DNA of 64,000 nucleotides from Pyropia yezoensis (taxonomy: Eukaryota > Rhodophyta > Bangiophyceae > Bangiales > Bangiaceae). The notes beneath the pieces were generated by a model. It was not told where the DNA came from, searched no databases, and saw only the letters and a list, made by a program, of their open reading frames with translations. The stretch covers positions 19,256,020 to 19,320,019 of the forward strand of contig CM020620.1 in the NCBI GenBank assembly GCA_009829735.1. Direction: 5' to 3'. Positions within the stretch are counted from its first letter, which is position 1. Each line of letters starts with the position of its first letter. Shown one piece after another: positions 10,018-57,545 of this stretch. A program made the translations under genes and the position numbers.

Positions 10018-10030
10018 CTCCCCTCTCCTC
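10018..10030 (-). other. Polypurine tract of copy A2
   Basis: Reverse complement gaggagaggggag directly abuts the LTR at 9549-10017; in Ty3/gypsy elements this primes plus-strand DNA synthesis. The same sequence abuts the 3' LTR of copy A1 at 33011-33023. Confidence 0.85.
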
Positions 10031-19300: not shown

Positions 19301-22300
19301 GCACCTCCTCAGCCGGATGTCCCGGCGGACAGCACCCTACCAAGGGCGGGGAAACGAGTAAGAGGAAGGATGACCGGGGGGCGCTGGGGTCACCCAAGCA
19401 AGCCACCCCGGAGTACCGCGGGGAAAAGCCCCCACGGAGAGCGCGGTTGAGCCGACGCCGCATCAACCCCCGGGTACACCTTCCGGCCCCGACGACACGG
19501 CGTCAGGGGATTGATGGACCAACCTCCGAGGTTGGGAGGAGAGGACGGGAAGCCCCTTCACGTTGAACCAGACAAGGGCCCTGTTCAGGATGCCCGAGCT
19601 ACACCGGATATCGGTGTAGGACATGTGTTGTTTACCTTGGAGAACTTCAAGGTATCAGCCACACTGGGGGTTTGACCCCCAGTCGACACGATCGTACTAC
19701 CCTGTACTGGACACAGGGGCTGGACCCAACCTTATCCGGAAGGATACCCTCCCGGACAAGTGGCTTCCACGAGTCAGAGTGACTCGGGGACCCACCATCA
19801 AGGACGCGAATGGTCGACTCATTCGTACGACCGCAGCGATGTCGCTGCAGGTTACCATCGGGGATCTCACCACGGAAGTTGACTTCCTGGTATGTGAAAC
19901 GCTATCGGTGCCCTGCATACTGGGGTGCACCTTCATCAACGTTCACGTTGATGCAATCCGGCCAGGCCGGAGGACCGTCGAGCTTCAAGAAGCCGACGGG
20001 ACGAAGCGAGGACACACGGCTATCGTCAGGGACCTGACGCTACAAGGAAGCCACGTTAACGTGGCTGAGGTGTACGCAAGCGTCGAGCCGAAGACACTTC
20101 GGTTGGACAAGCGAACTCGCTTTGAGCCGTTGTCAGAGACAGTCCTCCCGGTTAACTGCGACCTCGCAGGCATCTGCAGAGTCCAGTCCAACCTACGGAC
20201 GTACAAGCGCCATGGGTTGACCATGGCCAACGGTCTCATAGACCTCCCAGCAGGAGGGTCGTCCCTCCTAGTGATGGCGAACTACCGCCGTAAGGCAGTC
20301 ACCCTCCGAAGGGAACTATCCTCGGGATTGCCGAACTCTACGAAGGAGATATCCTTACCCCTGATAAGGAAGGTCAAGTGGAACCACTTGAAGTACTGGC
20401 GGTCGCCGAGACCACCGAGCGACAGCAACCCGATGACGGGAAGCCTAACCCATCGGCGGCTCCGGCGGACCTGCCGCCAAAGGACCAAGAGGCCTTGAAG
20501 GCACTGGCCGAGGCTGACCTCGACCACCTTCCCCCTTCGGTAGCCGAAGGGGTACGACGGATGCTAAGAAAGCATGACGTTATGTGGACAGGCGGGGCCT
20601 TGGGGACCATTGGGGCAACCCAACATCGTATAGACCTGGTACCAGGCGCACGACCCGCCCGCTCACAACCGCACCGAGCGGGACCTATGCAACGAGAGAT
20701 CGTTGATGGAGAAGTGAAGAGGATGAGTGAAGCTAAGGTGATCCGACCTTCGATGTCGGAATGGGGTGCCCCAGTCGTTATTGTGCCGAAGAAGGATCAA
20801 ACCCCTCGGTTTTGCATCGATTATCGACGCCTCAACTTGGTTACCAAGAAGGACTCATACCCTTTACCAAGGATGGATGAATGCATCGACTCCCTGGGGG
20901 AGGCTACGGTGTTTACCACCATCGACTGCAATGCCGGATACTGGCAGATCCCGGTGGCGGACGAGGATATCCCCAAGACGGCATTCGTCTGTCACAGTGG
21001 AGTGTACGAGTTCCTAAGGATGCCCTTCGGATTGTCCAACGCCCCCGCTACATTCCAGCGGGCTATCGACATCATACTGTCTGGGGTGAAGTGGCGTAAC
21101 TGCCTAGTGTACCTCGATGACGTCATCGTCTTCTCGCGTAACATGGATGACCATGTACAACATGTTGACGAGGTACTCACCCTCTTGAGGAACGCCGGGG
21201 TAACCCTGCGTCTGAAGAAGTGCGCCTTCTTCCAACAGACGGTCGAATATCTGGGCCACCAGATAACCCCTGGTAAACTAGGGGTACTCGAAGCCAATAC
21301 CCGGGCACTCCGGGATGCCCGGTTCCCTAACACCCAGACGCAGCTCAAGAGCTTCCTGGGAATGTGCAATGTATACCGACGGTTCGTCAAGGACTTCGCT
21401 CGGATAGCTAAACCGTTAACGGTTCTTACGAGCAGTACCTTACCCAAGGTACTCCAACCCCCTTCGCCTAGCGAAGAGGAGGCATTCGAGTCGCTGAAGC
21501 GAGCCCTACTAGCCCCACCCGTCCTTGCGTTACCGCATAGACGGGGTACCTTCGTCATCGATGTCGATGCGTGTGATACACAAGTGGGATGCACCCTGTT
21601 ACAGGGAGAGACGTTGATCGGTACCGATAACGTTATCCCGGACCTACGGCCGGTAGGGTACTTCAGCCGGACACTCAACCCGGCTGAGCGGAACTATAGT
21701 GCCACCGAGCGTGAATGCCTCGGAGTTATATGGGCAGTGCAACTGCTCCGTCCATACCTGGAGGGCTCCAGGTTCATCGTGAGGTCCGACCACGAACCCC
21801 TACAATGGCTCCTCAACCTTGGTGACAAGGATTCCGATAGCCATGGGAGGCTAGCCCGATGGAGGCTGAAGATGGCCGAGCACGACTACCGCACGGTGTA
21901 TAAGGCTGGGTCAACCCACCACCTCGGAGACGCGTTGTCTCGACTCGACACCCCGAGCGGGGATACCCGCCCGGTGGACGAGGACATCCCGGTGGTACCG
22001 GTGTGCATGGTGGGTAATGCTACCCAGGGTATGGTTGACCATACCATGGCACACCTTGCGTGCCCATTGACCCTCGCGGACTTCCGCGAGGCACAGGCCA
22101 ACGACGATGACTGTAAACGCCATCGTGCTAACCTCCTGGCCGGTACGGCCGGCATCTTCTCCGAGAGCGAAGACGGACTCATATACCGGCGGGCACCCGC
22201 CGATGGACGACATCAAGTCGTGGTTCCCGTGTCCTTACGGCAAGCCGTCATGGAACGAGAACATGAGAACCCTACAGCCGGACACCCGGGGGGTTCACGT

Positions 22301-25300
22301 ATGTTCGCAGCAATGCGAAGGTTCTTCTACTGGCCAGCAATGGCCGTCGACGTGGTCGACCACGTAAGGGGATGCCACCCCTGTGCGCGTAACCGCATGA
22401 GTCTACATAGGCAGGCGTCTGCCATGAAGCTATTCCCACCCGATGGGCCCAACGAGCAAGTCGCTATCGACATACTCGGGCCACTTCCGGTAACGGAAGA
22501 AGGGAACAGGTACATCCTGGTCATGTCTGACCGCTTCACTAAGCTGTCAAGAGCGGCAGCCATCCCGAATGATACGGCATACACGATCATGAACGCAGTG
22601 GTTGACCACTGGATCAGTGCATACGGAGTCATGAAGCAACTCCTCTCCGATAACGGAGCAAACCTTACGTCGGCATTCTGCACGAAGGTCCTGGGCATGT
22701 TCGGTATCGAACCACGTCGGGCATCCGACTACCACCCGCAGTCCAACGGGCAGGTGGAGCGGTTCAACCGCACCATCGTCAAGATGCTACAGTGCTACGT
22801 GGCAGAGCACACGAACACTTGGGACAGGCTTCTGTCCGTACTCACCCTGGCATACAATGCCAGGCCACATCGGAGCACAAACATTGCTCCGCTGGAGTGG
22901 GTCATGCCACTAGGCGTCGGTAACCTGACGCTGCCACCCGGCAGGTGCACTCGGTATGATACACCGAAGGGCCGACCCGCCGAACGCATCCACCTAGCTT
23001 GGTTGGCCAAGCTATCGTGGATGATTCCTAAGCTCAAGGGTGCCCTTGACAGAACACAACTTCGGTATAAGAAGAACTTCGACGCCCGACTACGGGTGCG
23101 CAACGCAACCCTGGTAACAGGTGACTGGGTCTATATCAGACACCAGAAGTTCCGAGGGAACAAGCTTATGCAACCGGTCAAGGGACCGTACCAGATCCTC
23201 CACAGAGATGACCACTCTGTTATCTTACACTCCGATACGGAGATCCAACGCATCAGTATGAATGATGTCACACCTGCTCCGAAGCCGGAACAGCCTCAGC
23301 CGGTACCGGCTGGGTTGCTACATGAAGCTCTTACAACCCACCGGTCGGATGACCCGGTGGGACCGGATGGGATTCCATACCAAGTAGAGAGCGTGGTCGG
23401 ACACACCGACCCGGACATACCAGGACCCTGGTACGTCAAGGTTATGTGGGTCGGATACGACTCACCCACCTGGGAACAGGCGGCGAATATACCCCGCCAA
23501 CTACTCATGCCTTACATGAGGCGACGACGCCTACTGTAACAACCCAACCGACACCGACTTCGGCTGTTGGGGGGTGAGGCTTATACCTACTAAGTAGGGT
23601 GTGACATGGTTACGGCAGACTTAGGTTTCTAAGTCAAATCAGACTTAGGTTTCTAAGTCGAACCAAGCTTAGGTAACTAAGTAGAGCTAAGCTTAGGTAA
23701 CTAAGTAAAAACCTGAACCTTAATAAGTTAACTTAAAGGTAAAGGCTAACTCCGATAATATCGAAGTAACTAGGGAGCTTACACGGGAGGATGACCTCCC
23801 CAAGCCAAGACACAAAGTGAGGGAGGATAACCTCCCCAAGCATGAACCAACCGGAAGAAGTTGGGCGGGAGGCAAGGCACCACTGAGCCAGAAGGGGTAC
23901 TCCCCAGGGCAGCAAACAGAGGCAAGCAATGCCCCCAGCGGGGGATGAGTTTATACTCACTACTACCCGGCTACCATAAGGGTTGCCGGGGCCCTCTCCC
24001 GCACAAACAATAGCACTCCTCAGTGGGTAGACCCACTGCTCGAGGGAGGCCACTCACGCGTAAGCGCGTAGACCTCCGTGCTCCACCGGTCGGCAACGTC
24101 ACGACGGTCGACCACCCGAGTTACCTCGGTGCATAGCTGGACGAGGGTGCTGCGGCCGGCCTCCACGTCCTCCGGAGCTTTCTGGAGGCGGTCCAGCACG
24201 CCACCAAAGCAACGCGCTGACCCAACCAGCGCAGCACCTGGGGGGATATCCCCCCAGCTAACAGAGAGATCCCCACGCATTGCGCGGGTAACAAGGGCGT
24301 CAACGCCCTCATACCAGAGACGGGGACCCCCGTCATGTAGGACAGGGGCGGGAGGTGACACTGGCGCAGCCAGAGGAGCCACAGGAGCCGACACGGCTAC
24401 CACCGGAGCCGGTGGCACTTGATATGAGGCCCGGTAGGACCCTACCGAAGGGGCTCCACCGTAACCACGGCGGTACTCCGCCCGACGACGGGACACCTCA
24501 CGCTCCCCACCCACAGAGCCCCACTCTCGGGGACGACGGCCAACCGCCGCCGGCATCGGGTTACCGAACCACGGAGCAAGGACCTGAAGAGGGTCATGGA
24601 TAACCATGGGAATACCCAGGTCAGGAACGGCCTCGGTGGACGCCCACCCATGGCAACTAGGCTCACCCGGCTGAGTACGCCGGACACGCAACGAGTGACG
24701 AGGCAAGGGGGAAGCCCCAGCCTGCGGGTCCCGGTACGGGGGAAGGTCCAACACCCCAGCCCAGTTCACGGCATCGTGAACAGCCAGCAGGGCTTCGAAC
24801 TCCCGGGCCAACCCGGTCTTGGCGGCTATCAGATCCACGCCCAACTGCGCGATGTGCCGACGGACACCCGTCAAAAGTTGAAACAGACGACCCTGCCGGC
24901 GGACGGACAGCAAGAAGGATGAAGCCTGCCCGAGGGTAACCTCAAGGGTGAAGGTACCCTGCAACGGGTGGACCGGTCGCGAGGCCAACACACTCCCGAA
25001 GTAGCGGAGGCAGGAGCCGGTGTCAAACCGGAAAGCAGGGGCGGGTTCCCACCCCTCCTGCCATAGCGGCGGGCGCACGGGAGTGTATACCGGAGCACGA
25101 CCGTTGCCGGTCTGCAACGCACACGTTATATCCGTGCGGAACGCATCGGCCATGACACCATGGTTACGTCGCCAACTCGACGCCGACTTCAACCCCGCCA
25201 TGGGCGGGTAGGGAGCCGTCAACGACAGATACGGGGGTTCCCCCGGGTAGTAGTCAAAGTCGGGATACCGACCGGTACGGCTCACCGTCTCCCCAAACGC

Positions 25301-28300
25301 AACCGGCTCCGCCGCCGCCGCAATCCCCCGAGCACTAGCCGGGTAGTCAATCTCCCGCGGCAACGCGGGGGCAATCAAGTCGCAGACCCCGAAGTTGGGG
25401 TCGAGGTAGACCTCACCCCGTCCCACCCGGGTGCGCCAGAGCTGCGCATGCCGGTCGTCCGGCTGACTCAGGATCCAATGGTGTTCCACCCGGACCGCGT
25501 TCGGCTGGTTGACCAGCCGCACCAACTCCCGCTCCCAGCACGGGTCCACCTTGACGCGCCGGGAGGATTCTCCACGGGGATGCACCAGGTGGAAGTCCAC
25601 CCGCATACGCCCATCGGACTCCATCGACTCTTGCACCGTGAGGCCTCGAACCCGAGCCACCAAGTCGGACACCGACATGGCGGGTTGACCCGCCGCCACG
25701 GCGACGCCGCCACCCAACGGGGCAACCCGGGCAGGACCAGGAAGAATCGGGGGCGCCGGGGGACGCACCACCGGCAGAGGGGCCGACGTCGGAGATGGAC
25801 GAGGCCGAGGAGGAAGAAGAAGGGCGGGCGCCCGCCCGGAGTAACTCCCGGTGTCAACCGCCATGGGAGAAGGAGCGTCTTGACCGCTCGACGCCCGCGG
25901 CACCGCAGGTACGGCACCGGCGCCGGCACCACCCGTCGGCGTAGCCCCCGCCTCGGAAGGGGAAGGCACTTGGACAGCCTCCGGAGCCGGAGCCCCGGCC
26001 TTGCGGACACCCGCACCGTCTTGACCCGCCGCACCGGGTGTCGCACCGCCACCACCACCCGCGTCAACGTCGGGACCGCCTCGAGGAGTCACCGCCCGGA
26101 CACCCGGACCACCTTGACCAGCCGGAGTCGGCTGCGGGTCGCGACCTCCGCCGCAGGGCGGACCATCTTGAGGTACCTGCGGTGAGCCGGCACCGGCACC
26201 AGGCCCCATCCGGGCAGCCGGCAGAAAGGGGGTAGAAGCCGCCACGCGCGGTTGACCGCCGGGTTGACCTCCGGCCGACGGCACCGTCGTGCCGCTGCAC
26301 ACGGACGACAGTCCTCCGGCCGACAGACGGACGGACACCGCAGGCCCGTCGTCGTCAGACGAGCTCACCCCGTAACGCGCGGCGTCGGGACCGACAGGCG
26401 CGTCGTCCTCCATCTCCTCCCCGATCAGGAGGTCTTCCTCCTCTTCAAGCACCTGGGGATAGGACATGATAACGGGTGCGGAGTCCCCCGCGCCCACAAG
26501 CCGTCGACGGCTACAACCCGGTACGGTGGGATAACCGGGACGAGCCAGGGAAGCGCGGACACCCGCGCTTATGACCACAAACGGCCACGAGAAGCGCCGC
26601 AGGCACGCGGGTCGACCCGCGCCCCACGGGGCTACGACCGCGCTCCACCCAGGCACCTGGGCGGGACGGGGCCACACCCACACACGGGGTAAGTAAGGGG
26701 GGTCACCCCCAACCGCCCCCACGCAACGCGGGCAGCCCCCGCCCCCCACTCAATCGTCCACACGAGAGGGGCCCCCCTACCACCAGGCACCTGGTGGCGG
26801 ATCCGCTTGCACCACCCCTCGGAAAGGGGGGGCGTGAACAGCAACCCGCATCGGGAATTTAACGGTCCGGAAAACGGATCGTGTGTGTGTACCACGCAAA
26901 GGGGGGCACCCCCCTGAGACAACCTCGAAAAGGGGTGTCTGTCGCGACGGGGCGCAAAGCCCCACCCGACGGGTAAACGGTCACGCGACCCACTTACATT
27001 CGGTACCCCGAATGCAACTCGACCCGAGGACGGGCCGAATCTAAGGGGGGGATATGTAGCAATATGGTTGTCCGTATTGTGACCCTAATATCAGGGGGGC
27101 TACTTCTAACCCTTAACTTTCAATTTGATAGTTCGTACTGGTCACGGTATCTATAAGTTACGTATGACCAGAGGGACTTGCATCTTGGGGTGGAGGGTAG
27201 TTAGTAGTGTCTCCGAGGGTTTATAACGAGGGGGCCGGTGGCGAATCCACCTCCGGCCAAGGTAGAACAACAAACCCCTCCCATTTGGGCTCCCATCTTG
27301 GTCCCGTGGCTTGCGCTCCAAGGACAGCAACCTTGGCCTCCCGGTGACGTTGGTGCCGATCCCCCTAGGTGAGTGTTCCCTGAGAGTGGACGCGCGACGG
27401 ATCCCTATTGTGCTACAACTATCCCGGGTCCCGGCGACTTGCCGACCTTCACGTGGGACGCTGTGGCAACTCGCCCACCGTACCTCCACGAGGCCGATCC
27501 GCACACTCATCACTTTGATGTGCGGATGGAGAAAGACTTCCGGCGAGGTCCCTACTTGGTGACCTCGGCTCAACTTGAGTTTCCTCAACAGTCTGCTGCC
27601 AGTAAGGAGCAGTACTATCCGAAGAAGCCCGAGTGGTGGCCTCAAGTTGAGGTCCCCTACGGGTTCCCGGCGTTGTTGCCCCGGTTGCTTGACCACTTCG
27701 GCTCCGTCATGTTGACGGCTGGCCCTGATCACCTGGTGTGGGCCATGTTGGCCACCCAGTGGCTCCTCGAGGTCATGTCGACCTGGGTGTCCTGTGTTCA
27801 GCGGCGGGGGATGCTCTGGCATCTCCCCCTCCGGCTCATCCAGGGTTTGGAACAGCTCACCCCTCAGCTAGTTGCTGAGGGGTGCTCATCAGGACAACTC
27901 ACTCTACTTGAGGAGATGCTCCGGCTCCATAAGTTTATCGAGTGGGAGAGCATTGAGCACAAGTTGCGCCGCCCCACTCGTGGGCCCAAGGACGATGGCG
28001 CACTTCGCCAGTTCGTGTGGGTCGCTCGTGAACTTCACGACGGCCGTGTGGTCCTACGAGAGGGGTTGGGCATCGGAGACTACCCGTATGCCCCGGGGGT
28101 GGATCGCCACACTGCGCCACCCCCAGACAAGCCCATAGTTATGGCCGTGCCGTCCTATGATGACCACATGACTCAACCCACTGCGGGAGCCCCAAGTCGG
28201 GGTCGCAGTTACACCCGGGCACCGCCACCTCGGCGGGCCCCTCCGCTTCCTCCTGTTCCTTTCCAACCTCACGGGAACATCCCGATCAGCGTGGCCGTGG

Positions 28301-28941
28301 AGTCTTCCACCCCGGTGTCCCCCAACTTGGGGGCCACCCTCCTGACGGTATACCCCAAGTTGGTGTTGCCGCCCACGCCTCTAACCTCAGAGATGATGAT
28401 CACCACGTTGGTGCGCACCATTTCCTGGTTGGCCGCGTCGACCGCAACCCTACAGAGTTCCGAGACTCCTCAACTTGAGGAGCGCGTTCGTACTGCAGTG
28501 GCGACCGCGAGTTGCGAGTCGGTGGCGGAGTTTATGACAGCCGAGTTGGCTCGTATTGGGGCTATTATGCCCCAGCCAGCCCCACTTGGGCGTGGCAAAC
28601 GTCGCGCGAGCCGGGCATACTCGCCTCCTCGCCGTCGTCGCCGACACTCTCGGCGCTCTCCCTCCGTGTCGGAAGACGAGTTGTCTTACTCCGTCTCGGA
28701 GTCCTCTACCCCGTCGGAGACGGAGTCTGTCCAGCGTCTGCGTCGCAAACTTGCGCGCAAGACCAGGCAGAAGAGTGGCCACGGTCGGCGCCACTTGCGC
28801 GACCGTGAGGGGCGCGACGGTTCCGACTTGGAGCCGCCGCCCCCTCCAACGGGTGGAAACCGTTATCGGCGTGGGTCTCGCCGCTCGCCTCCACGTGAGG
28901 GCGAGGGCCGTGGAGTGGGAGAGTCTAGCATGCGTGCCTAG
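10356..28941 (+). CDS. Antisense ORF of family A in copy A2, interrupted by the nested element
   Basis: Two pieces, 10356-10780 and 27423-28941 (27418-27422 is the second copy of the target duplication actat). Together they are 1944 nt, exactly the length of the uninterrupted copy at 33352-35295, with no frame break, so only the nested insertion disrupts it. Layout: acidic Gly/Pro-rich N-terminus, a folded-looking middle (residues about 100-400, with FRTDQFAFLDD, DVRMEKDFRRGPYL, LLDHFGSVML, RRGMLWHLPLRLI), a Pro/Arg-rich linker, and a basic Ser/Arg-rich tail. It runs opposite to gag-pol, converging on it. Function unknown. Confidence 0.85.
10781..11143 (+). repeat. 5' LTR of family-B element
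   Basis: 363 bp, TGTAGCAATATGG...TTGTGCTACA, direct repeat of 27055-27417. Confidence 0.96.
11145..11162 (+). other. Primer binding site of family-B element
   Basis: TGGTGGAGCAGCAGGGGA begins one base after the LTR. TGG at the start pairs with a tRNA CCA end. The identical 18-mer, in sense orientation, follows the 5' LTRs of family-A copies at 30736-30719 and 39609-39592. I cannot name the tRNA; it is not the usual initiator-Met pattern. Confidence 0.75.
11369..13552 (+). pseudogene. gag: gag of family B, one in-frame stop
   Basis: ATG at 11369 (ccATGt context). One frame throughout, interrupted by TAA at 12620-12622 (FGRRI then stop then ELDYELGKLLGEG), so a single codon separates it from a 727-codon gag. 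Capsid-like helical region about residues 230-480, a Pro-rich linker, and a CCHC zinc knuckle (CMLCGDPQHWVSSC: C-x2-C-x4-H-x4-C) near 13318-13362. The tail after the knuckle is Pro/Gly-rich. The stop may be a mutation, a sequence error or a recoded codon. Pol follows in the -1 frame after a 9-nt gap from the gag stop. Confidence 0.85.
13561..17727 (+). CDS. pol: pol of family B: protease, reverse transcriptase, RNase H, integrase, chromodomain
   Basis: 1388 codons, uninterrupted. Aspartic protease with D-T-G-A-G near residue 113; reverse transcriptase with FCIDYRRLN (about 480) and YLDD at 580-583; RNase H with DVDACD and TERECLGVIWA; integrase with an HHCC zinc region (HENPTAGHPGG...CHPCARN), catalytic D near 1033 (AIDILGPLP), D in LLSDNGAN and E in NGQVERFN; a GPY-type motif (KLMQPVKGPYQ); and a C-terminal chromodomain from about 1340 (VKVMWVGYDSPTWEQA). 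Domain order RT-RH-IN is that of Ty3/gypsy (Metaviridae). All catalytic residues I can check are present, so this copy may be functional. It is in the -1 frame relative to gag. Its sequence is packed with perfect short stem-loops (see findings). Confidence 0.95.
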   Translation: MTGGRWGHPSKPPRSTAGKAPRRARLSRRRINPRVHLPAPTTRRQGIDDQPPRLGGEDGKPLHVEPDKGPVQDARATPDIGVGHVLFTLENFKVSATLGVDPQSTRSYYPVLDTGAGPNLIRKDTLPDKWLPRVRVTRGPTIKDANGRLIRTTAAMSLQVTIGDLTTEVDFLVCETLSVPCILGCTFINVHVDAIRPGRRTVELQEADGTKRGHTAIVRDLTLQGSHVNVAEVYASVEPKTLRLDKRTRFEPLSETVLPVNCDLAGICRVQSNLRTYKRHGLTMANGLIDLPAGGSSLLVMANYRRKAVTLPKGTILGIAELYEGDILTPDKEGQVEPLEVLAVAETTERQQPDDGKPNPSAAPADLPPKDQEALKALAEADLDHLPPSVAEGVRRMLRKHDVMWTGGALGTIGATQHRIDLVPGARPARSQPHRAGPMQREIVDGEVKRMSEAKVIRPSMSEWGAPVVIVPKKDQTPRFCIDYRRLNLVTKKDSYPLPRMDECIDSLGEATVFTTIDCNAGYWQIPVADEDIPKTAFVCHSGVYEFLRMPFGLSNAPATFQRAIDIILSGVKWRNCLVYLDDVIVFSRNMDDHVQHVDEVLTLLRNAGVTLRLKKCAFFQQTVEYLGHQITPGKLGVLEANTRALRDARFPNTQTQLKSFLGMCNVYRRFVKDFARIAKPLTVLTSSTLPKVLQPPSPSEEEAFESLKRALLAPPVLALPHRRGTFVIDVDACDTQVGCTLLQGETLIGTDNVIPDLRPVGYFSRTLNPAERNYSATERECLGVIWAVQLLRPYLEGSRFIVRSDHEPLQWLLNLGDKDSDSHGRLARWRLKMAEHDYRTVYKAGSTHHLGDALSRLDTPSGDTRPVDEDIPVVPVCMVGNATQGMVDHTMAHLACPLTLADFREAQANDDDCKRHRANLLAGTAGIFSESEDGLIYRRAPADGRHQVVVPVSLRQAVMEREHENPTAGHPGGSRMFAAMRRFFYWPAMAVDVVDHVRGCHPCARNRMSLHRQASAMKLFPPDGPNEQVAIDILGPLPVTEEGNRYILVMSDRFTKLSRAAAIPNDTAYTIMNAVVDHWISAYGVMKQLLSDNGANLTSAFCTKVLGMFGIEPRRASDYHPQSNGQVERFNRTIVKMLQCYVAEHTNTWDRLLSVLTLAYNARPHRSTNIAPLEWVMPLGVGNLTLPPGRCTRYDTPKGRPAERIHLAWLAKLSWMIPKLKGALDRTQLRYKKNFDARLRVRNATLVTGDWVYIRHQKFRGNKLMQPVKGPYQILHRDDHSVILHSDTEIQRISMNDVTPAPKPEQPQPVPAGLLHEALTTHRSDDPVGPDGIPYQVESVVGHTDPDIPGPWYVKVMWVGYDSPTWEQAANIPRQLLMPYMRRRRLL
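17773..18040 (+). promoter_or_regulatory. Stem-loop array between pol and the antisense ORF of family B
   Basis: After the pol stop come CCTACTAAGTAGG (17773-17785), two GACTTAG-GTTT-CTAAGTC hairpins and two related CTTAG-GTAA-CTAAG units (17806-17895), then two GGGAGG...CCTCCC hairpins near 17972-18028. The array lies between two convergent ORFs, where a bidirectional 3'-end signal would be expected; that role is inference. The duplicate assembly copy has the same array at 23585-23850. Confidence 0.6.
18607..19106. other. Assembly gap, exactly 500 N
   Basis: 500 undetermined bases, a round placeholder size. The sequence left of it matches sequence ending about 24425, and the sequence right of it matches from 13301, so the two contigs overlap rather than abut. 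Confidence 0.99.
19107..24425 (+). other. Second assembly copy of 13301-18606 (likely unmerged contig overlap)
   Basis: Gag tail, pol and 3' region are repeated at an offset of 5812 bp. In the inspected parts, differences are nearly all one-base indels in homopolymers and cluster near the gap: in 19107-20310 and in 18230-18606. The interior, 20310 to about 24030, looks identical to its partner. This is the pattern of poorly polished contig ends rather than of an old biological duplication. Confidence 0.85.
19623..23539 (+). pseudogene. pol: pol of family B, duplicate assembly copy with frame breaks
   Basis: Same protein as 13561-17727. An extra t near 19673 and a missing c near 20307 break the frame, so it reads as 19623-20498 and 20378-23539. 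From 20378 on (1053 codons) it is the same as the first copy. Treat as the same gene unless long reads show a true tandem copy. Confidence 0.85.
24020..26467 (-). CDS. Antisense ORF of family B (815 aa)
   Basis: From ATG at 26467 (MSYPQVLEEEEDLLIGEEMEDD) the ORF runs 816 codons on the strand opposite to gag-pol and ends about 480 bp from the pol stop. N-terminal third acidic then Pro/Gly/Ala-rich; a folded-looking centre about residues 270-650 with HHWILSQPDDRHAQLWRTRV, YPDFDYYPGEPPYLSL, SCLRYFGSVLASRP, SFLLSVRRQGRLFQLL; an Arg/Pro-rich tail. Several of these line up in order with the family-A antisense protein (HFAFLDDDEV, LPTFTWDAVATRPPYLHE, LLDHFGSVMLTAG, WVSCVQRRGMLWHL). No known domain recognised. 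The C-terminus is uncertain because the first assembly copy (18240-18606) has indels there. Confidence 0.8.
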   Translation of the reverse strand: MSYPQVLEEEEDLLIGEEMEDDAPVGPDAARYGVSSSDDDGPAVSVRLSAGGLSSVCSGTTVPSAGGQPGGQPRVAASTPFLPAARMGPGAGAGSPQVPQDGPPCGGGRDPQPTPAGQGGPGVRAVTPRGGPDVDAGGGGGATPGAAGQDGAGVRKAGAPAPEAVQVPSPSEAGATPTGGAGAGAVPAVPRASSGQDAPSPMAVDTGSYSGRAPALLLPPRPRPSPTSAPLPVVRPPAPPILPGPARVAPLGGGVAVAAGQPAMSVSDLVARVRGLTVQESMESDGRMRVDFHLVHPRGESSRRVKVDPCWERELVRLVNQPNAVRVEHHWILSQPDDRHAQLWRTRVGRGEVYLDPNFGVCDLIAPALPREIDYPASARGIAAAAEPVAFGETVSRTGRYPDFDYYPGEPPYLSLTAPYPPMAGLKSASSWRRNHGVMADAFRTDITCALQTGNGRAPVYTPVRPPLWQEGWEPAPAFRFDTGSCLRYFGSVLASRPVHPLQGTFTLEVTLGQASSFLLSVRRQGRLFQLLTGVRRHIAQLGVDLIAAKTGLAREFEALLAVHDAVNWAGVLDLPPYRDPQAGASPLPRHSLRVRRTQPGEPSCHGWASTEAVPDLGIPMVIHDPLQVLAPWFGNPMPAAVGRRPREWGSVGGEREVSRRRAEYRRGYGGAPSVGSYRASYQVPPAPVVAVSAPVAPLAAPVSPPAPVLHDGGPRLWYEGVDALVTRAMRGDLSVSWGDIPPGAALVGSARCFGGVLDRLQKAPEDVEAGRSTLVQLCTEVTRVVDRRDVADRWSTEVYALTREWPPSSSGSTH
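27043..27054 (+). other. Polypurine tract of family-B element
   Basis: AAGGGGGGGATA directly before the 3' LTR; the expected plus-strand primer position. Confidence 0.8.
27055..27417 (+). repeat. 3' LTR of family-B element
   Basis: 363 bp, TGTAGC...GCTACA; differs from 10781-11143 at two positions that I could find (g/t in atccaccNccgg and t/a in ccccNtNggtg). Confidence 0.96.
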
Positions 28942-29052
28942 TTGGCAGCTGCCTTTGTTGTGAGAGTGTGAGGGTTAGGGCTGTAGTTAAAAGCCACTCT
29001 GCGTACCACTTCGACTTGAAGCACTCTCGTGGCACTGTTGCTCGGCCTTCCC

Positions 29053-30048
29053 TCACGTTGAGGGAGGGCTGTTAGGGTCTATCTCATTCCGGGCACAGTA
29101 CGCCCGGACCTTCTCAGCGGGAAGGTCCTCCACATACTCCCACGTATCATCCTTGGCTTTGTAGCCAAACCAACGCACCCTCAACATGAGGCGGTCAGTA
29201 TCTTCATCCCATCCGTGGTCGATGAACTTATCGAACACGTACTCCTGCGGGCCCTGTTTGGCCGCAGGCAGTGAGGGGAGGCGCCACGACTCCAACGCGC
29301 GTGCCCAAGCTGGGTCGCCTGCAGGCGGTGGTGCAACTTTGACCACGTCCTGTCCGTTCACTGTGCGGACCCCATCGTCACTTTCGATGGTGAAGCGCCG
29401 CCCATCAGTACGAAGGACCTGGTACGGTCCCTTCGTCTGGAATACCAACTTACCCCCAGTTGGGGTGTGTGAGTGAACCAACACCCAGTCACCCTGTTCG
29501 GGGACATACTTAGCGTTGCGCACCTTTTTGTCAAAGGTACGCTTGTGGCGCTTTTGTGCTTTGTCCATCTCAGCCCTGACTTTAGGGATGAGGTTTTCAA
29601 GCCTAGCAGCGAACTCCGCCTTACTCTCAGTAGGAGTAGGCGTACTGCCGCCATCCTCCCTAGTTGGGAGCGGCCGCCGCACGGCAATAGACCGCACGCG
29701 ACGGGGGGTCACAAAAGCGAGGGGTACTTCCCCGGTAGATGAGTGAACCTGCGAATTGTAGGCAGTGGTAAGAATAGAAATGTATTGGTCCCACGTTTTC
29801 ACAAGCTCACTCGCATAGTGGCGCAGCTGCCTAACAATAGTTTTGTTGAAGCGCTCCTTAACGAGGGCCCTTGAACGGGGCCCTCCCCTATACGGTTGTT
29901 GGCGTATAGGGGGTACACCGGGTTTCAACTCGATCCGGTGTTGGGTGGCTCTCATGAGTCCCAACTGACCATCCCACAACTTGTGATATTGGTCCAAGAG
30001 GCGTTCAACTTGAACCCTCAACCTGGGTGGAACACCCTCCATGTTCAC
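29053..30048 (-). pseudogene. pol: pol remnant of copy A2 with large internal deletion
   Basis: Starts in the region before the reverse transcriptase (TQHRIELKPGVPPIRQQPYRGG) and then jumps at about 29854 to the end of the integrase core (RFNKTIVRQLRHY), continuing to the intact chromodomain and stop at 29053. Essentially all of RT, RNase H and most of integrase are missing. The fusion is in frame and the junction shares a GAG codon with both parents. It cannot encode an active polymerase. Confidence 0.88.
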
Positions 30049-30059
30049 ACGGGGACGAG

Positions 30060-30708
30060 GAGAGGCGGCCGACTTGGCTTGGTGCTTCTCCTTTCCGGAC
30101 TTCGGGTCGCTACTCGCGCCCGCGTTGAGGGTGACCGCTACTGCCGGTCCCTCATGTTGGTCGATATAGCCGAACTTGGCTCCCGATCAAAGATACTTTC
30201 TTTGAGGGTGGCGGGGGTAGCAACTTGCTACGACCCCTGTCACAGGCTCGAGCCCATCACCGACGAGTGAAGGTCCGCCGTCCTCCACCCGCCTAGTTGG
30301 CGACGGCTCTATGCCGAAGTTGAATCCAACCCGAGTGGATCTCGCGGGGACAGTCCTCTCACCTTGGGACGTTCCCTTTGAGTGCACCACCCGGTGGCCG
30401 AAGTGCGAACCACCGGTCCGAGGAAGACCCTCAGGGTGAACACCCGACTGGGTCGGGGTGGCATACCGCCCGCACCGATACCCACGGCCCTGCTGGCTGG
30501 AGTGCCTCCAGCACCTCCGCGACCCCAGGTACACCCTGTGTCTGGCCAGTATTCAAAGGCGCCGGAGTAAAGTCGTCACCGGAGAGTTTCCCGAACGTCG
30601 GGAGGTCCGATCCAGCCGTGTTGGCTAACGATCCACACGACACAGTCCAAGACCACCGTTCCTCTGAGACAAAGGGCCCCCTACACCCGGGTGCACCCGG
30701 AGGTAAAG
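30060..30708 (-). pseudogene. gag: gag remnant of copy A2
   Basis: Reads the gag N-terminus of family A (SLANTAGSDLPTFGK..., compare 39492 in copy A1) in one frame and continues in another (RSTRVGFNFGIEPSPTR), then breaks off at about 30190 into sequence preceding the RT. Capsid, zinc knuckle and protease are absent. Confidence 0.75.
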
Positions 30709-30718
30709 TTTACCTCTG

Positions 30719-30736
30719 TCCCCTGCTGCTCCACCA
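30719..30736 (-). other. Primer binding site of copy A2
   Basis: Reverse complement TGGTGGAGCAGCAGGGGA, two bases from the 5' LTR; same 18-mer as in copy A1 and in family B. Confidence 0.75.
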
Positions 30737-30738
30737 AA

Positions 30739-31207
30739 TGTGGCAAAAACCACAAGCACACACGGTACCCAAGTTGGGGCGGTGTGCCAGGGCTGCCTCC
30801 CGTGTCGGGGGAACCGGAAGAAGTGCAAGTCGCACACACTCTGTCCCTGTTGTGGGGCAAACCCCCCACGGACAAACAAGAAGATGGTGTGTGGTCCAAC
30901 AGTTTCTTGGTCGGGACGGGGACGCAGGGCCAAGCCCCGCTGTCCCTCCCCTTATCCCCCCAGGGTCCACTCAGAATCTCGCCACTCAGAATCTCCCACC
31001 CCAGCACCTGCCCACCGGGCCACACGAAAATTCAAGACGATAAATGCAGAAAACCCTCAAATCCAAGTTGGATTTACTACTAAGCTAACTATCCCAAACT
31101 TAGGGAATATGGACCCAAATGCAGGGGGAGGAACGGATCAGGCTAGTGGCCTGCCGCCCCTTGCATGGCACGTGTTGCCCCCCTACCTGGGGGTCAATAC
31201 TGCCACA
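30739..31207 (-). repeat. 5' LTR of copy A2
   Basis: 469 bp, direct repeat of 9549-10017; followed by the target duplication gtaag at 31208-31212. Confidence 0.96.
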
Positions 31208-31530
31208 GTAAGCTCGCGCGAGAGAGGAAAGCATCAGCGGGAGGTAGCACTGTAGTGGAGTGAAGTGGACGTAAACACTGAGCTGCATTAAAAATGCTAC
31301 AAGCCACGGTAGCCGCCTGTGCCGCCGCGCACGCCGCGCTGCGACCCCCCATCGGGGTAGTGAAGCCACCCTTCGCGCTAGGGCCGCGCGCAAAGCGCGG
31401 CCGCTGCTGCCACCGGGGGGCACCCCCCTCCCGCCTCCACCCCCATTGCCGGCGGCGGCGGCGCAGCTGCCTGAAGATCCCGCCAACGCCCACGGCCAGG
31501 CGCCGCCGTCCCCCTCCCTCTCTCCAGGTG

Positions 31531-31841
31531 GTCAAACACTTGCGCAGCAATGCGACGGGCGTGGAGGAGGAGGGCGGCGGCGGTGGCGGCACGCCGCCAT
31601 TCAGCCCCGATCCGCCCCCGCACCCAGCCGCCGCCGCCGACGCGGTCGAGCGGGGGCGCGCAAAGCCGGGCGGGGGGGCGATACCCGGCGGGCCGCCCGG
31701 GGGCGCGCCCCCCCCTCCCCCCCCCCCGCCATCATCACCCACGGGCAGACGCTGTTTGAGATGCAGGTGACGGGCTTGCGGGCACGCGCGGAGAAAACCA
31801 AGACACACCGGATTTCGGACAGCCAACCCATCCTCTGCTGA
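31531..31841 (+). CDS. Host gene of unknown function, putative last exon (continues 8128-9543)
   Basis: A polypyrimidine tract and acceptor (ccctctctccag, ending at 31530) precede an exon that, joined in phase to the donor at 9544, reads GGQTLAQQCDG, an Arg/Gly/Pro-rich stretch, and then ITHGQTLFEMQVTGLRARAEK and a stop at 31839-31841. Without the retroelements the intron would be only about 320 bp. Joining is inferred from splice signals and phase, not from transcripts. A further acceptor inside (gggcag before acgctg, about 31746) is possible. Confidence 0.4.
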
Positions 31842-32540
31842 CCAGGCCGACGGGGGCTAATTCAGGCGCAACCCGGCCGGCCAATGGAAGCGCGAGCGAT
31901 TCGACCAGGATTGGTGTGGCGGTGTCTGTGTGTGTGTGCGGCAGTGGGTTCCCGGCGGCGCGCGCGGGCGCCAGTGGCTCGGCTGCGGCGGGCGCCGGAG
32001 CCCGTGGCTTACGGCCGGTCCGGGACACATCTGAGTTCGCGGCAGCGAGTTCGCGGCACTTCGTGGCGCTCTGAGATTGGCTGTTGCTCTCTACGTGTCC
32101 TGCGTTGTGTGCCGCGAACTCAAGCTGCCGCAGGATGCGGCAAGAAGTGGCTTTTGCGAAAGCCACTTCTTGCCGCATCCTGCGGCAGTCTGAGTTCGCG
32201 GCAGCCCCCTTGCGGCAGCATTGGCGCCATCAAATTCATGGGAAGTTCGGGACTGCGTGCCCCACAACAGCTGCTCCTGTCGATGGATCTCGCTCAGGCA
32301 GTTTGAACCCAGCGGCGGCGCAGGCGCGCGGGGTCGAGGCCAGAAGGGTGGCACACTTGCCGCGCCGTGCACAGCGGGTCGGCAGGCGACGACGAGAGGG
32401 CACGTCCATCCGCCTCCCGTCTGGCCGTCGCCCGGCTGTTCCTGCCAGCGCAAGCTCTCCCGCCGACCCTTCCGTGCCTGCGGCACTCCTCCCCTCGCCC
32501 CGCTCCACCCGACGCCGTGCAGGACCGGGGCGATCGTCCC
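31842..32540. repeat. Host stretch with a long hairpin
   Basis: Holds a 30-bp perfect inverted repeat, 32125-32154 and 32159-32188 with loop tgcg, extended outward by a second matched block (gccgcgaactca / tgagttcgcggc) to about 32110-32203. The word gttcgcggca recurs nearby at about 32034-32062. No gene recognised. Confidence 0.8.
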
Positions 32541-33010
32541 TGTGGCAAAAACCACTCGCACACACGGCACCCAAGTTGGGGCGGTGCACAAGGGCTGCCT
32601 CCCGTGTCGGGGGAACCGGAAGAAGTGCAAGTCGCACACACTCTGTCCCTGTTGTGGGGCAAACCCCCCACTGACAAACAAGAGGATGGTGTGTGGTCCA
32701 ACAGTTTCTTGGTCGGGACGGGGACGCAGGGCCAAGCCCCGCTGTCCCTCCCCTTATCCCCCCAGGGTCCACTCAGAATCTCGCCACTCAGAATCTCCCA
32801 CCCCAGCACCTGCCCACCGGGCCACACGAAAAATTCAAGACGATAAATGCAGAAAACCCTCAAATCCAAGTTGGATTTACTACTAAGCTAACTATCCCAA
32901 ACTTAGGGAATATGGACCCAAATGCAGGGGGAGGAACGGATCAGGCTAGTGGCCTGCCGCCCCTTGCATGGCACGTGTTGCCCCCTTACCTGGGGGTCAA
33001 TACTGCCACA
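32541..33010 (-). repeat. 3' LTR of copy A1
   Basis: 470 bp, TGTGGCAA...CTGCCACA; abuts polypurine tract 33011-33023. Confidence 0.97.
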
Positions 33011-33351
33011 CTCCCCTCTCCTCAGTTCCGACCGACCCGGTCGGCCCTGTGAGGGGGTGCGTAGACGCACGTCTCGGCGTTGGGGGGGGCGCGACTTGCT
33101 GTCCCCCCTTGAGTACGTAACGCGGATGTGGGGGCGGTCACGTTGACCGCCCCTCTCGTCAAGCTTGCCCACTCGGCAGCTTGCTCTCCTCGGTTCACAC
33201 TTCACCATTTCCACCACCTCCCCTTCACCTTTCACGGGGCCGCCCCACACTGGGGAGGCCACCCGTCTACCCACGATCCGAGTCCCCCTCAACTCGAGGC
33301 GGGTCTCGTGCCGCTATAGCCAGGGCGTCTCTCCCCAACTTGGGGAGAGCC

Positions 33352-35295
33352 ATGGCGACCCCGGGAGTGGAGACGGACTCTCTGGATGAGCGTATGGAGG
33401 ACACCTCCTACGGTGCAGCACCCGCCGGGACTTCCGGCGGGGGCTCCGCGATCGCTCCGGGGGATGGGACTCCCGCGTCACCCGGCTTTGGGTTGACGGC
33501 GGGATCTCCCCCGGAGGCGGGACAAGTTGTCCCGCGTGAGGCCTTGGGGCGGTGGTTTTACCCCGCTTGGCCTCTATATGAGGAGGGGTTGACTGTTCTT
33601 CGCTGTGGCCGACTTGGCGCAGCGATGGGTCGGGTATGGGACCGCCTACAAGAGAAGTATTCCCGTAGGTTCGGGTTCTCTGCCGGCTTCAGGACGGACC
33701 ATTTTGCCTTCCTGGACGACGACGAGGTCGAGTACGTACAGCGGGCCAAGGCCATGGTGGACCGCGGGGGAACTATCCCGGGTCCCGGCGACTTGCCGAC
33801 CTTTACTTGGGACGCGGTGGCAACTCGCCCCCCGTACCTTCACGAGGCCGATCCGCACACTCATCACTTTGATGTGCGGATGGAGAAGGACTTCCGACGA
33901 GGTCCCTACTTGGTGACCTCGGCTCAACTCGAGTTTCCTCAGCAGCCTGCTGCCAGTAAGGAGCAGTACTATCCGAAGAAGCCCGAGTGGTGGCCTCAAA
34001 TTGAGGTCCCCTACGGGTTCCCGGCGTTGCTGCCTCGGTTGCTTGACCACTTCGGCTCCGTCATGTTGACGGCTGGCCCTGATCACCTGGTGTGGGCCAT
34101 GTTGGCCACCCAGTGGCTCCTCGAGGTCATGTCGACCTGGGTCTCTTGTGTTCAGCGGCGGGGGATGCTCTGGCATCTCCCCCTCCGGCTTATCCAAGGT
34201 TTGGAACAGCTCACCCCTCAGCTAGTTGCTGAGGGGTGCTCATCAGGACAACTCACTCTACTTGAGGAGATGCTCCGACTTCACAAGTTTATCGAGTGGG
34301 AGAGCATTGAGCACAAGTTGCGCCGCCCCACTCGTGGGCCCAAGGACGATGGCGCACTTCGCCAGTTCGTATGGGTCGCTCGTGAACTTCACGACGGCCG
34401 TGTGGTCCTACGAGAGGGGTTGGGCATCGGGGACTACCCGTATGCCCCGGGGGTGGATCGCCACACTGCGCCACCCCCGGACAAGCCCATAGTTATGGCC
34501 GTGCCCTCATATGATAACCATATGACTCAACCTACTGCGGGGGCCCCAAGTCGGGGTCGCAGTTACACCCGGGTCCCGCCACCTCGGCGTGTCCCCCCGC
34601 TTCCTCCTGTCCCCTACCAACCGCACGGGGACATCCCGATTAGCGTGGCCATTGAGTCTTCCACCCCGGTGTCCCCCAACTTGGGGGCCACCCTCCTTAC
34701 GGTATACCCCAAGTTGGTGTTACCGCCCACGCCTCTAACCTCAGAGATGATGATCACCACGTTGGTGCGCACCATTTCCTGGTTGGCCGCGTCGACCGCA
34801 ACCCTCCAAACTTCCGAGACTCCCCAACTTGAGGAGCGCGTCCGTACTGCAGTGGCGACCGCGAGTTGCGAGTCGGTGGCGGAGTTTATGACGGCCGAGT
34901 TGGCTCGCATTGGGGCTATTATGCCCCAGCCAGCCCCACTTGGGCGTGGCAAACGTCGCGCGAGCCGGGCATACTCGCCTCCTCGCCGTCGTCGCCGGCA
35001 CTCGCGGCGCTCTTCCTCCGTATCGGAAGACGAGTTGTCTTACTCCGTCTCGGAGTCTTCTACCCCGTCGGAGTCGGAGTCTGTCCGGCGTCTGCGTCGC
35101 AAACTTGCGCGCAAGACCAAGCAGAAGAGTAGCCACGGTCGGCGCCACTTGCGCGACCGTGAGGGGCGCGACGGTTCCGACTTGGAGCCGCCGCCCCCTC
35201 CAACGAGTGGAGACCGTTATCGGCGTGGGTCTCGCCGCTCGCCTCTACGTGAGGGCGAGGGCCCTGGAGTTGGAGAGTCTAGCATGCATGCCTAG
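33352..35295 (+). CDS. Antisense ORF of family A, intact (647 aa)
   Basis: Chosen ATG at 33352 (gccATGg) because the deleted copy A3 and split copy A2 begin at the same codon; the frame is open further upstream. Acidic Gly/Pro N-terminus (1-110), folded-looking middle (about 110-400: LGRWFYPAWPLYEEGL, DRLQEKYSRR, FRTDHFAFLDDDEVEY, DVRMEKDFRRGPYLV, PEWWPQIEVPYGFP, HFGSVMLTAGPDHLVWAML, RRGMLWHLPLRLIQGL), Pro-rich linker with RS/RRRRR (450-600), and a Ser/Arg-rich tail (RRLRRKLARKTKQK, HGRRHLRDREGRDG) that looks nuclear or RNA-binding. It lies between pol and the 3' LTR on the opposite strand, converging with pol; stops are 111 bp apart. No known family recognised. Confidence 0.85.
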   Translation: MATPGVETDSLDERMEDTSYGAAPAGTSGGGSAIAPGDGTPASPGFGLTAGSPPEAGQVVPREALGRWFYPAWPLYEEGLTVLRCGRLGAAMGRVWDRLQEKYSRRFGFSAGFRTDHFAFLDDDEVEYVQRAKAMVDRGGTIPGPGDLPTFTWDAVATRPPYLHEADPHTHHFDVRMEKDFRRGPYLVTSAQLEFPQQPAASKEQYYPKKPEWWPQIEVPYGFPALLPRLLDHFGSVMLTAGPDHLVWAMLATQWLLEVMSTWVSCVQRRGMLWHLPLRLIQGLEQLTPQLVAEGCSSGQLTLLEEMLRLHKFIEWESIEHKLRRPTRGPKDDGALRQFVWVARELHDGRVVLREGLGIGDYPYAPGVDRHTAPPPDKPIVMAVPSYDNHMTQPTAGAPSRGRSYTRVPPPRRVPPLPPVPYQPHGDIPISVAIESSTPVSPNLGATLLTVYPKLVLPPTPLTSEMMITTLVRTISWLAASTATLQTSETPQLEERVRTAVATASCESVAEFMTAELARIGAIMPQPAPLGRGKRRASRAYSPPRRRRRHSRRSSSVSEDELSYSVSESSTPSESESVRRLRRKLARKTKQKSSHGRRHLRDREGRDGSDLEPPPPPTSGDRYRRGSRRSPLREGEGPGVGESSMHA

Positions 35296-35406
35296 TTGGC
35301 AGCTGCCTTTGTTGTGAGAGTGTGAGGGTTAGGGCTGTAGTTAAAAGCCACTCTGCGTACCACTTCGACTTGAAGCACTCTCTTGGCACTGTTGCTCGGC
35401 CTTCCC

Positions 35407-38157
35407 TCACGTTGAGGGAGGGCTGTTAGGGTCTATCTCATTCCGGGCACAGTACGCCCGGACCTTCTCAGCGGGAAGGTCCTCCACATACTCCCACGTA
35501 TCATCCTTGGCTTTGTAGCCAAACCAACGCACCCTCAACATGAGGCGGTCAGTGTCCTCATCCCATCCGTGGTCGATGAACTTATCGAACACGTACTCCT
35601 GCGGGCCCTGTTTGGCCGCAGGCAGCGAGGGGAGGCGCCACGCTTCCAAAGCACGTGCCCAAGCTGGGTCGCCTGCAGGTGGTGGTGCAACTTTGACCAC
35701 GTCCTGTCCGTTCACTGTGCGGACCCCATCGTCACTTTCGATGGTGAAGCGCCGCCCATCAGTACGAAGGACCTGGTACGGCCCCTTCGTCTGGAACACC
35801 AACTTACCCCCAGTTGGGGTGTGTGAGTGGACCAATACCCAGTCACCCTGCTCGGGGACATGCTTGGCGTTGCGCACCTTTTTGTCAAAGGTACGCTTGT
35901 AGCGCTTTTGTGCTTTGTCCATCTCAGCCCTGACTTTAGGGATGAGGTTTTCAAGCCTAGCAGCGAACTCCGCCTTACTCTCAGTAGGAGTAGGCGTACT
36001 GCCACCATCCTCCCTAGTTGGGAGCGGCCGCCGCACGGCAATAGACCGCACGCGACGGGGGGTCACAAAAGCGAGGGGTACTTCCCCGGTAGATGAGTGA
36101 ACCTGCGAATTGTAGGCAGTGGTAAGAATAGAAATGTATTGTTCCCACGTTTTCACGTGCTCACTCACATAGTGGCGCAGCTGCCTAACAATAGTTTTGT
36201 TGAAGCGCTCCACCTGCCCATTAGTTTGTGGGTGGTAGGGGGTGGCATAGTTTGCCTTAACCCCCAACATATCCAGCACTCCCTGAAACAGTACAGACGC
36301 AAATTGCGGTCCATTGTCCGATAGTGTACTATCCGGAAAGCCATACGCGGCAACCCAGTGATCTAGGAAGGCTGACACGACCGACATGGCCGTGATCTCT
36401 GCCAGTGGGATCGCTCGCGTAAGTTTCGTGAAGCGGTCACAGATGACCAGGAGGTACTGGTTGCCCTCCTCGGTCACTGGCAGTGGCCCAAGGATGTCCA
36501 TCGCCAACGCGGCGAAGGGCTCCTTGGCCGGGAACAATAGCATAGCCGTAGTAGGCCGCCGTTCCATCAGACGGTTCTGTGCACAACTTGTGCAAGCAGC
36601 CACCCAGTTGTAGATGTCCACCACCATGGACGGCCAGTAGTACCTGGTCCTCAGGGTCTGGTACAGTTTACTAGACCCCAGGTGTCCACCCGTGGGAGCG
36701 TTGTGCTCCCTCTCAAGGATACTGTCCTTGAGGGATGCGGGGACGACAAGTTGTTCGGTCCCCTGGAATACCCCCCTCCTCATGAGGAGGCCATCATCTC
36801 CCAGAAAGAACCGCGTCTCCGCCACTGTATCCAGTGTATCCCTCTGCGACTTGCAGAAGGGATCCTCGGCCTGGGCCTTCACCACCTCGTCCAGGGACAG
36901 GGGCAAGTACTTCTTGTTCCCTGGCGCCTCGGGGTTCAACGCCTGACCAGAGCGCGTGACTACCCCCACGATGGGGATGTCCTCATCGACTGGGTTAGTG
37001 TCCAGCCCCTCGGTAGGTACCCGAGAGAGGCCGTCGGCAAGGGCATGTTGCCTGCCAGGTCGGTACTCAATATCAAAGTTGAAGGGTGCAAGTCGCACCC
37101 TCCACCGGTTGAGACGAGTGTTCGTACAGTCCGTCTTGAAGATGAACTGCAACGCGCGGTGGTCACAGCGGATGAGGAACTTCTCACCCTCTAGGTAGTG
37201 ACGAAGTGACGTCACCGCCCACACCACTGCGAGTCCTTCCAACTCGGTGACTCCGTAGTTCTTCTCGGCCGAGTTTAGCCCCTTGCTGAAGTATCCCACC
37301 GGCAAGTACTCCTTGTCCGGCTGCTGCTGAAGCAACACACAACCAAGTTGGTCGTAGCTAGCGTCCACCTTCAGGATGTAGTGGCCTCCCAACCTGGGAA
37401 TAGCCAGGATAGGGGGCTTCAGCAGAAGGTCCCGAAGAGTCTCAAAGGATTCCTGCTCCACCCGACTTGGGGGAGGCAGGTTCTTCGGTAGCGTTGAGCT
37501 CACTAACTCATTCAACGGCTTCGCCACCTTGGCGAAGCCCTTGGTGAAACGTCGGTACACGTTACAAATCCCGAGGAAGCTCCTCATCTGGGTCTGGGTC
37601 CGGGGGTACTGAGCCTTACGGATGGCCCTCAAGTTTTTCTCGTTGACACTGAGACGCCCCGGACGGACAACATGTCCCAAGTATTCCACCTCTTGAGTGA
37701 AGAGGTGGCACTTACTCGCCTTCAGTGACACACCGGCGTCAGCAAGTAGCTTGAACACCTGGCCAAGATGGCCAATGTGTTCCTCCGGACTTCGGGAGAA
37801 CACAATGATATCGTCTAGGTACACGAGACAGATCTGCCACCGTACTCCGGCCAGAATCATGTCCATAGCGCGCTGGAAAGTTGCCGGCGCGATACACAGG
37901 CCAAACGGTAGACGCTTGCACTGGTAGGTACCACAGTGACAGGTAAAGGTAGTTTTATGCCTGTCCTCCGGGGCAATGGGAATTGGCCAGTACCCCGCGT
38001 TACAGTCCAGGGTAGAGAACACGTTTGCCTCCCCCAGAGAGTCCAGACAGTCATCCATCCTAGGTAGGGGATAACTGTCCTTCACCGTGCTCTCGTTGAG
38101 CTTACGGTAGTCGATACAGAACCGGGGGGTCCCATCAACTTTGGGGACGATAACCAC
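35407..38157 (-). pseudogene. pol: pol of copy A1: RT, RNase H, integrase, chromodomain; 5' part missing
   Basis: 916 codons, open from a fusion with gag near 38165. Reverse transcriptase begins at VIVPKVDGTPRFCIDYRKLN with YLDD at residues 113-116; RNase H (KVDASYDQLG, GVTELEGLAVVWA); integrase zinc region (HNAPTGGHLG...CTSCAQN) and D-D-E (AMDILGPLP, LSDNGPQF, NGQVERFN); chromodomain at the end (RVRWFGYKAKDDTWEY). The aspartic protease and the RT N-terminus are deleted, so it lacks its own start and protease. The encoded core is otherwise intact. About half-diverged from family-B pol by eye, so the two are separate lineages. Confidence 0.9.
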
Positions 38158-39492: not shown

Positions 39493-39591
39493 GTTGGCTA
39501 ACGATCCGTATGACACGGTCCAAGTCCACCGTTCCTCTGAGACAGAGGGCCCCCTACACCCGGGTGCACCCGGAGGTAAAGTTTACCTCTG

Positions 39592-39609
39592 TCCCCTGCT
39601 GCTCCACCA
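39592..39609 (-). other. Primer binding site of copy A1
   Basis: Reverse complement TGGTGGAGCAGCAGGGGA, two bases inside the 5' LTR; shared with family B. Confidence 0.75.
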
Positions 39610-39611
39610 AA

Positions 39612-40081
39612 TGTGGCAAAAACCACTCGCACACACGGCACCCAAGTTGGGGCGGTGTACAAGGGCTGCCTCCCGTGTCCGGGGAACCGGAAGAAGTGCA
39701 AGTCGCACACACTCTGTCCCTGTTGTGGGGCAAACCCCCCACTGACAAACAAGAGGATGGTGTGTGGTCCAACAGTTTCTTGGTCGGGACGGGGACGCAG
39801 GGCCAAGCCCCGCTGTCCCTCCCCTTATCCCCCCAGGGTCCACTCAGAATCTCGCCACTCAGAATCTCCCACCCCAGCACCTGCCCACCGGGCCACACGA
39901 AAAATTCAAGACGATAAATGCAGAAAACCCTCAAATCCAAGTTGGATTTACTACTAAGCTAACTATCCCAAACTTAGGGAATATGGACCCAAATGCAGGG
40001 GGAGGAACGGATCAGGCTAGTGGCCTGCCGCCCCTTGCATGGCACATGTTGCCCCCCTACCTGGGGGTCAATACTGCCACA
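39612..40081 (-). repeat. 5' LTR of copy A1
   Basis: 470 bp direct repeat of 32541-33010; differs from it at four sites found by eye (t/c near 39657, c/g near 39680, a/g near 40046, c/t near 40057). Confidence 0.97.

Positions 40082-57509: not shown

Positions 57510-57545
<36 letters not shown>

Follow-up and report, generated by a model that had tools for sequence, protein, structure and literature searches.

Some long terminal repeat (LTR) retrotransposons of plants and of a fungus carry antisense genes, whose function is described as unknown (PMC7264820). Maize Grande (gene23), rice RIRE2 and Silene Retand carry, between pol and the 3′ LTR, a long open reading frame (ORF) that runs opposite to gag-pol, a class termed aORF-3R whose function is likewise given as unknown in the accounts we draw on (PMC7264820, PMC11963269). 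For Grande, the protein is described as nuclear and the gene as driven by a promoter that lies upstream (PMC7264820, PMC11963269), and TRP28, the main domain of the plant antisense ORFs, is reported only from flowering plants in the account of PMC11963269. Outside the land plants, brtn of the Boty-like elements of Botrytis cinerea is described as an extra antisense gene in a gypsy element (PMC7264820, PMC8365987). Here we describe two antisense ORFs, aORF-A and aORF-B, belonging to two families of Ty3/gypsy elements (A and B) in a 64,000-nucleotide stretch of the genome of the red alga Pyropia yezoensis (contig CM020620.1, positions 19,256,020 to 19,320,019), referred to below as the window.

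By place and orientation both ORFs are aORF-3R genes. Like Grande gene23 and its counterparts in RIRE2 and Retand as described, each is a long frame on the strand opposite gag-pol, lies between pol and the 3′ LTR and appears to be kept in related elements; unlike the plant cases, the host is a red alga. The elements are not Retand as that lineage is described, since Retand is a non-chromovirus lineage in which most antisense ORFs carry TRP28, whereas the pol of family A has a chromodomain match and no Pfam match to TRP28 (PF04195) was obtained in 15 members of type B and 3 of type A with a library copy whose inclusion of PF04195 was not separately checked. The likeness to brtn, a fungal gene, is one of published description and not of sequence. 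HBZ of the retrovirus HTLV-1, an antisense accessory gene described as encoding a nuclear regulatory protein (PMC11963269), serves as an analogy only and implies no membership. Among the matches listed in open-licence PubMed Central, judged by titles and the beginnings of abstracts, none describes an antisense ORF for a retrotransposon of a red alga. The algal elements apparently carry a different protein in the known aORF-3R position, with no relation to the plant and fungal proteins detected from published descriptions and Pfam scans. Such a second, apparently different antisense protein at the same position, with signs of selection on its codons, suggests that the layout may be general, and the red-algal case permits asking what different antisense proteins share.

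Two homologous antisense ORFs

An earlier sequence-only reading placed two antisense ORFs between the pol stop and the polypurine tract. Their coordinates and lengths are exact (Table 1), and a purine-rich tract precedes the 3′ LTR. The start of aORF-A lies 341 nucleotides (nt) inside the 3′ LTR edge and its stop 111 nt from the pol stop; the corresponding distances for aORF-B are 587 and 480 nt. In 1000 first-order Markov shuffles of each pol-to-3′ LTR interval the longest ATG-initiated ORF did not exceed 425 residues for family A (mean 149) or 422 residues for family B (mean 176), so that both ORFs are longer than any obtained by shuffling, which we count in support of a real gene. aORF-A and aORF-B are real ORFs.

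The two proteins are homologous over a central region of about 235 residues, as judged from several sequence comparisons. BLASTP aligns 55 identities in 240 columns (23%; E 1e-8 for a single comparison), and hhalign gives a significant profile-profile match (probability 80.6%, E 1.3e-5, 188 columns). Smith-Waterman alignment of the cores scores 104 against 38.8 ± 5.7 for sequences shuffled within 20-residue blocks (n = 500), with none of the 500 reaching the observed score and the reversed sequence scoring 37. A similar result comes from aORF-A and protein P0004 of Pyropia vietnamensis (101 against 39.8 ± 6.2; 0 of 500 shuffles). Three of the four motif pairs that had been proposed to run in order through both proteins (PPYL, FGSV and RR-G-L-L) fall within the alignment; the remaining pair, the first as listed, DHFAFLDDDEVEYVQR / HHWILSQPDDRHAQLWR, is unpaired in the alignments inspected, those of BLASTP, hhalign and Smith-Waterman among them, and is to be dropped. 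The N- and C-terminal parts gave scores that 454, 245 and 214 of 500 shuffles reached in three tests. Homology of the protein ends was considered and set aside: MAFFT places the C-terminal segments together, yet they score no better than shuffles.

The pol proteins of the two families are themselves only about 46% identical, which indicates that the families separated long ago. The initial proposal of a conserved accessory protein gene common to two diverged gypsy families, and lacking a recognised domain in Pfam scans, is supported. The gene was probably inherited from a common ancestral element and not exchanged later.

Codon-level selection and relatives

Family A permits a comparison at the level of codons, because its second copy, A2, retains the ORF as two pieces flanking the insertion of element B. 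Between A1 and A2 the ORF shows 90 differences and no gaps, distributed over the three codon positions as 15/11/64 (24 differences in one piece, 4/2/18, and 66 in the other, 11/9/46), and the excess at third positions is strong (p = 3e-13). The ratio of replacement to silent substitution rates (dN/dS, Nei-Gojobori) is 0.166 and 0.138 for the two pieces in this single pair of copies. The pol remnant shared by the same copies gives 0.122 (15 silent and 6 replacement changes), and between A1 and A2 the antisense protein is almost as constrained as pol. The expectation that the ORF would not be decaying in other copies is thus borne out by the one pair available, in which most changes between A1 and A2 are silent. 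For family B, evidence for selection comes from conservation of the protein between species.

Antisense non-coding transcripts are described in other retroelements (PMC7264820), and the antisense transcript might act as RNA alone with the ORF as a by-product. Minus frame 1 of the larger A1/A2 piece also has a low ratio (0.264), as is expected where third positions coincide; however, this frame contains 24 codons that are stops in one copy or the other, and each of the four further alternative frames has 10 to 20 such codons. Together with the third-position excess in the frame of the ORF and the protein-level conservation between species, these stops make an RNA-only role highly improbable. 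The codon pattern argues for a selected protein gene and not only an antisense RNA, and we regard the antisense ORF as almost certainly such a gene.

Protein searches returned one match for aORF-A, 95% identical, and four for aORF-B, two of which are hypothetical proteins of P. vietnamensis, a member of the Bangiales. Searching with the joint alignment of the cores gave 15 proteins at an E limit of 1, all with E ≤8.5e-62 and including the five earlier matches; eight of the 15 are P. vietnamensis gene models, and the named relatives are all from this species, which by itself points to a probable bangialean host. Each search scored about 8000 candidates sharing the most words with the query, and the absence of relatives elsewhere is therefore weak evidence. 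Bacterial and archaeal genome contigs and viral contigs, in which algal chromosomes are not expected, yielded pattern matches and no confirmed relative. One consequence is that transposons are the probable origin of some Pyropia genes now annotated as hypothetical proteins.

These relatives bear on a further account, in which a single capture of a host gene was followed by its spread between the families through recombination, and the gene is now carried as a passenger. The antisense proteins of A and B are less alike than pol (23% versus 46%), and internal deletions and duplications occur in the copies of the window, both points in favour of this account. Constraint near that of pol does not suit a passenger, and besides P. 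vietnamensis no other named organism supplied a relative within the candidates scored. Host capture is accordingly very unlikely.

A possible trans-acting role

The explanation we favour is that of an ambisense Ty3/gypsy element, with gag-pol on one strand and a separate accessory gene on the opposite strand between pol and the 3′ LTR. An antisense transcript would begin within the 3′ LTR or a short way inside its edge and would be translated, and its product would act in trans on the RNA, the complementary DNA (cDNA) or the integration complex of the element. By analogy with the nuclear gene23 protein of Grande as described (PMC7264820, PMC11963269), the product would most likely be a nuclear regulator associated with nucleic acid or chromatin. 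The copies in the window fit action in trans, in that A1 has no protease match and A2 no reverse transcriptase (RT), and both have kept the antisense ORF. We place this explanation as a whole at about even odds, and its narrower element, that the product is a trans-acting regulator of the RNA or cDNA of the element, may be correct with a likelihood a little under that.

Several observations weigh against this explanation. Because insertions A1, A2 and B are young, the retention of the ORF in defective copies is weak evidence for action in trans, and element A3, which lacks most of the ORF, indicates that a copy can dispense with its own. The dN/dS ratios derive from a single pair of copies and demonstrate constraint for that lineage. 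The relatives in another bangialean alga are known at the protein level. Both proteins have an acidic N-terminus, but the Arg/Ser-rich basic C-terminus of aORF-A (isoelectric point 9.1) has no comparable counterpart in aORF-B (6.6). Finally, AlphaFold models built from 7 and 15 sequences have a mean predicted local distance difference test score of 35.1 and 40.4, too weak to name a fold or to judge whether the two proteins share one.

The second of these models is consistent with a different role, in which a separate message would encode a further protein of Gag-like or particle-assembly type, acting as an RNA chaperone or as a partner of the capsid. Ten-residue blocks over residues 181-250 average 59-75 and are mostly helical, forming a weakly modelled bundle that covers the part where the A and B proteins resemble each other most, and the basic Arg/Ser-rich C-terminus of aORF-A would also suit such a protein. 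Against it, the sense strand of B already encodes a normal gag with a zinc knuckle (motif read by eye). An origin of the antisense ORF from gag was considered and is not supported by eight tests of the cores against four gag pieces, in each of which at least 45 and at most 432 of the 500 shuffles scored as high as the real pair; the nearest were both cores against B gag piece P0016, for which 60 and 45 of 500 did so. With the same weak second model, Foldseek listed 8 matches in the PDB and 56 among viral structures at an E limit of 10, none of them at E ≤0.001 in either set and hence no capsid match by fold. Profiles compared with solved structures gave 2 and 1 matches, all with E 0.25 or worse. 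We consider a Gag-like role unlikely.

Alternatively, the product may shield the element from silencing by the host, perhaps through binding of double-stranded or small RNA. The argument for this is that an antisense transcript overlapping the element could form double-stranded RNA, a subject discussed in PMC7264820, and so favour such a protein. Against it, Pfam scans show no known suppressor domain: no family reaches the cut-off in the 15 B-type and 3 A-type members. Matches below threshold in 15 members were to DUF6214 in two (best E 0.014), HTH_IclR in one and DUF3545 in one, and were not accepted; PHROGs gave no match for the three proteins scanned. Protection from silencing appears unlikely, slightly more so than a role in particle assembly.

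Returning to the ambisense explanation, we tentatively suggest, at slightly less than an even chance, that in bangialean gypsy elements this layout evolved with a lineage-specific protein independently of flowering plants and fungi, the protein being almost as constrained as pol and kept in copies without protease or RT. If this is true, LTR retroelements of plants, fungi and red algae would have arrived repeatedly at the same solution, a trans-acting gene on the antisense strand.

Elements and other genes in the window

The window contains parts of four Ty3/gypsy copies, A1, A2, A3 and B (Table 1), with three intact or interrupted antisense ORFs and one deleted remnant. They are assigned to Ty3/gypsy from the order of RT, RNase H and integrase between LTRs and from 5-base-pair (bp) target duplications; element edges and duplications were read by eye from the printed sequence ends. 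The LTR pairs are 98.9% (A1), 99.6% (A2) and 99.4% (B) identical, from which the insertions are taken to be young. Behind the 5′ LTR of both A1 and B lies a stretch with TTGGTGGAGCAGCAGGGGAC, presumably the primer-binding site. Pfam detects the predicted chromodomain at the C-terminus of A1 pol with E 5.6e-4, under its own cut-off, and solved chromodomains match with a best E of 2.4e-5; for B pol the Pfam match is weak (E 0.26). A chromodomain in the A element is supported by these comparisons, and its presence in B is uncertain. No protease was matched by Pfam in the two A1 ORFs scanned. A2 has lost RT, and its antisense ORF is open on both sides of the site where B landed.

Table 1. Coordinates of the antisense ORFs and of the retroelements that carry them, in window positions
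Feature	Position	Strand	Description
aORF-A (family A, copy A1)	33352..35295	+	647 residues, ATG start, intact, antisense to gag-pol
aORF-A part homologous to aORF-B	33640..34308	+	residues ~97-319
aORF-B (family B)	26467..24020	-	815 residues, ATG start, intact, antisense to gag-pol
aORF-B part homologous to aORF-A	24752..25456	-	residues ~338-572
Gypsy element A1	32541..40081	-	LTRs 32541-33010 and 39612-40081; target duplication GTCCC
A1 pol ORF	35407..38157	-	RT, RNase H, integrase, putative C-terminal chromodomain
Gypsy element A2	9549..31207	-	split by B; LTRs 9549-10017 and 30739-31207; target duplication GTAAG
A2 aORF N-terminal piece	10356..10780	+	cut by B insertion
A2 aORF C-terminal piece	27418..28941	+	beyond B
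Gypsy element B	10781..27417	+	inside A2 aORF; LTRs 10781-11143 and 27055-27417; target duplication ACTAT
B pol ORF	20378..23539	+	second of two near-identical copies, adjoins aORF; RT, RNase H, integrase, weak chromodomain match
Element A3 3′ end	1..1497	+	pol end, both aORF ends with middle deleted, 3′ LTR

Internal rearrangements are seen in three of the copies. B contains a direct duplication (13298-18606 and 19107-24424) that is 99.6% identical over 5.3 kilobases with about 500 bp between the copies, and the duplicated segment takes in pol together with the last part of gag and the 3′ end of the antisense ORF. An internal deletion of gag-pol in A2 has produced one 331-codon ORF (29053-30048) in which the beginning of pol is fused to the integrase end and the chromodomain. 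In A3 the flanks of the deletion in the antisense ORF (661-673) overlap by 13 bases, as in template switching or short-repeat repair. The LTRs of A1 and A2 (32541-33010 and 9549-10017) differ by about 2%, whereas silent sites of their antisense ORFs differ by about 12-14%, a gap that could reflect constraint on the LTR or recombination between copies.

Two further ORFs lie elsewhere in the window. One, at 57221-59614, lies where the GC content is very high (~72-77%), encodes a trypsin domain (PF00089, E 2.6e-30) and is probably a host gene. The other, of 611 codons on the minus strand at 3292-5127, has a sub-threshold match (E 0.027) to CxC4, a cysteine cluster linked to KDZ transposases.

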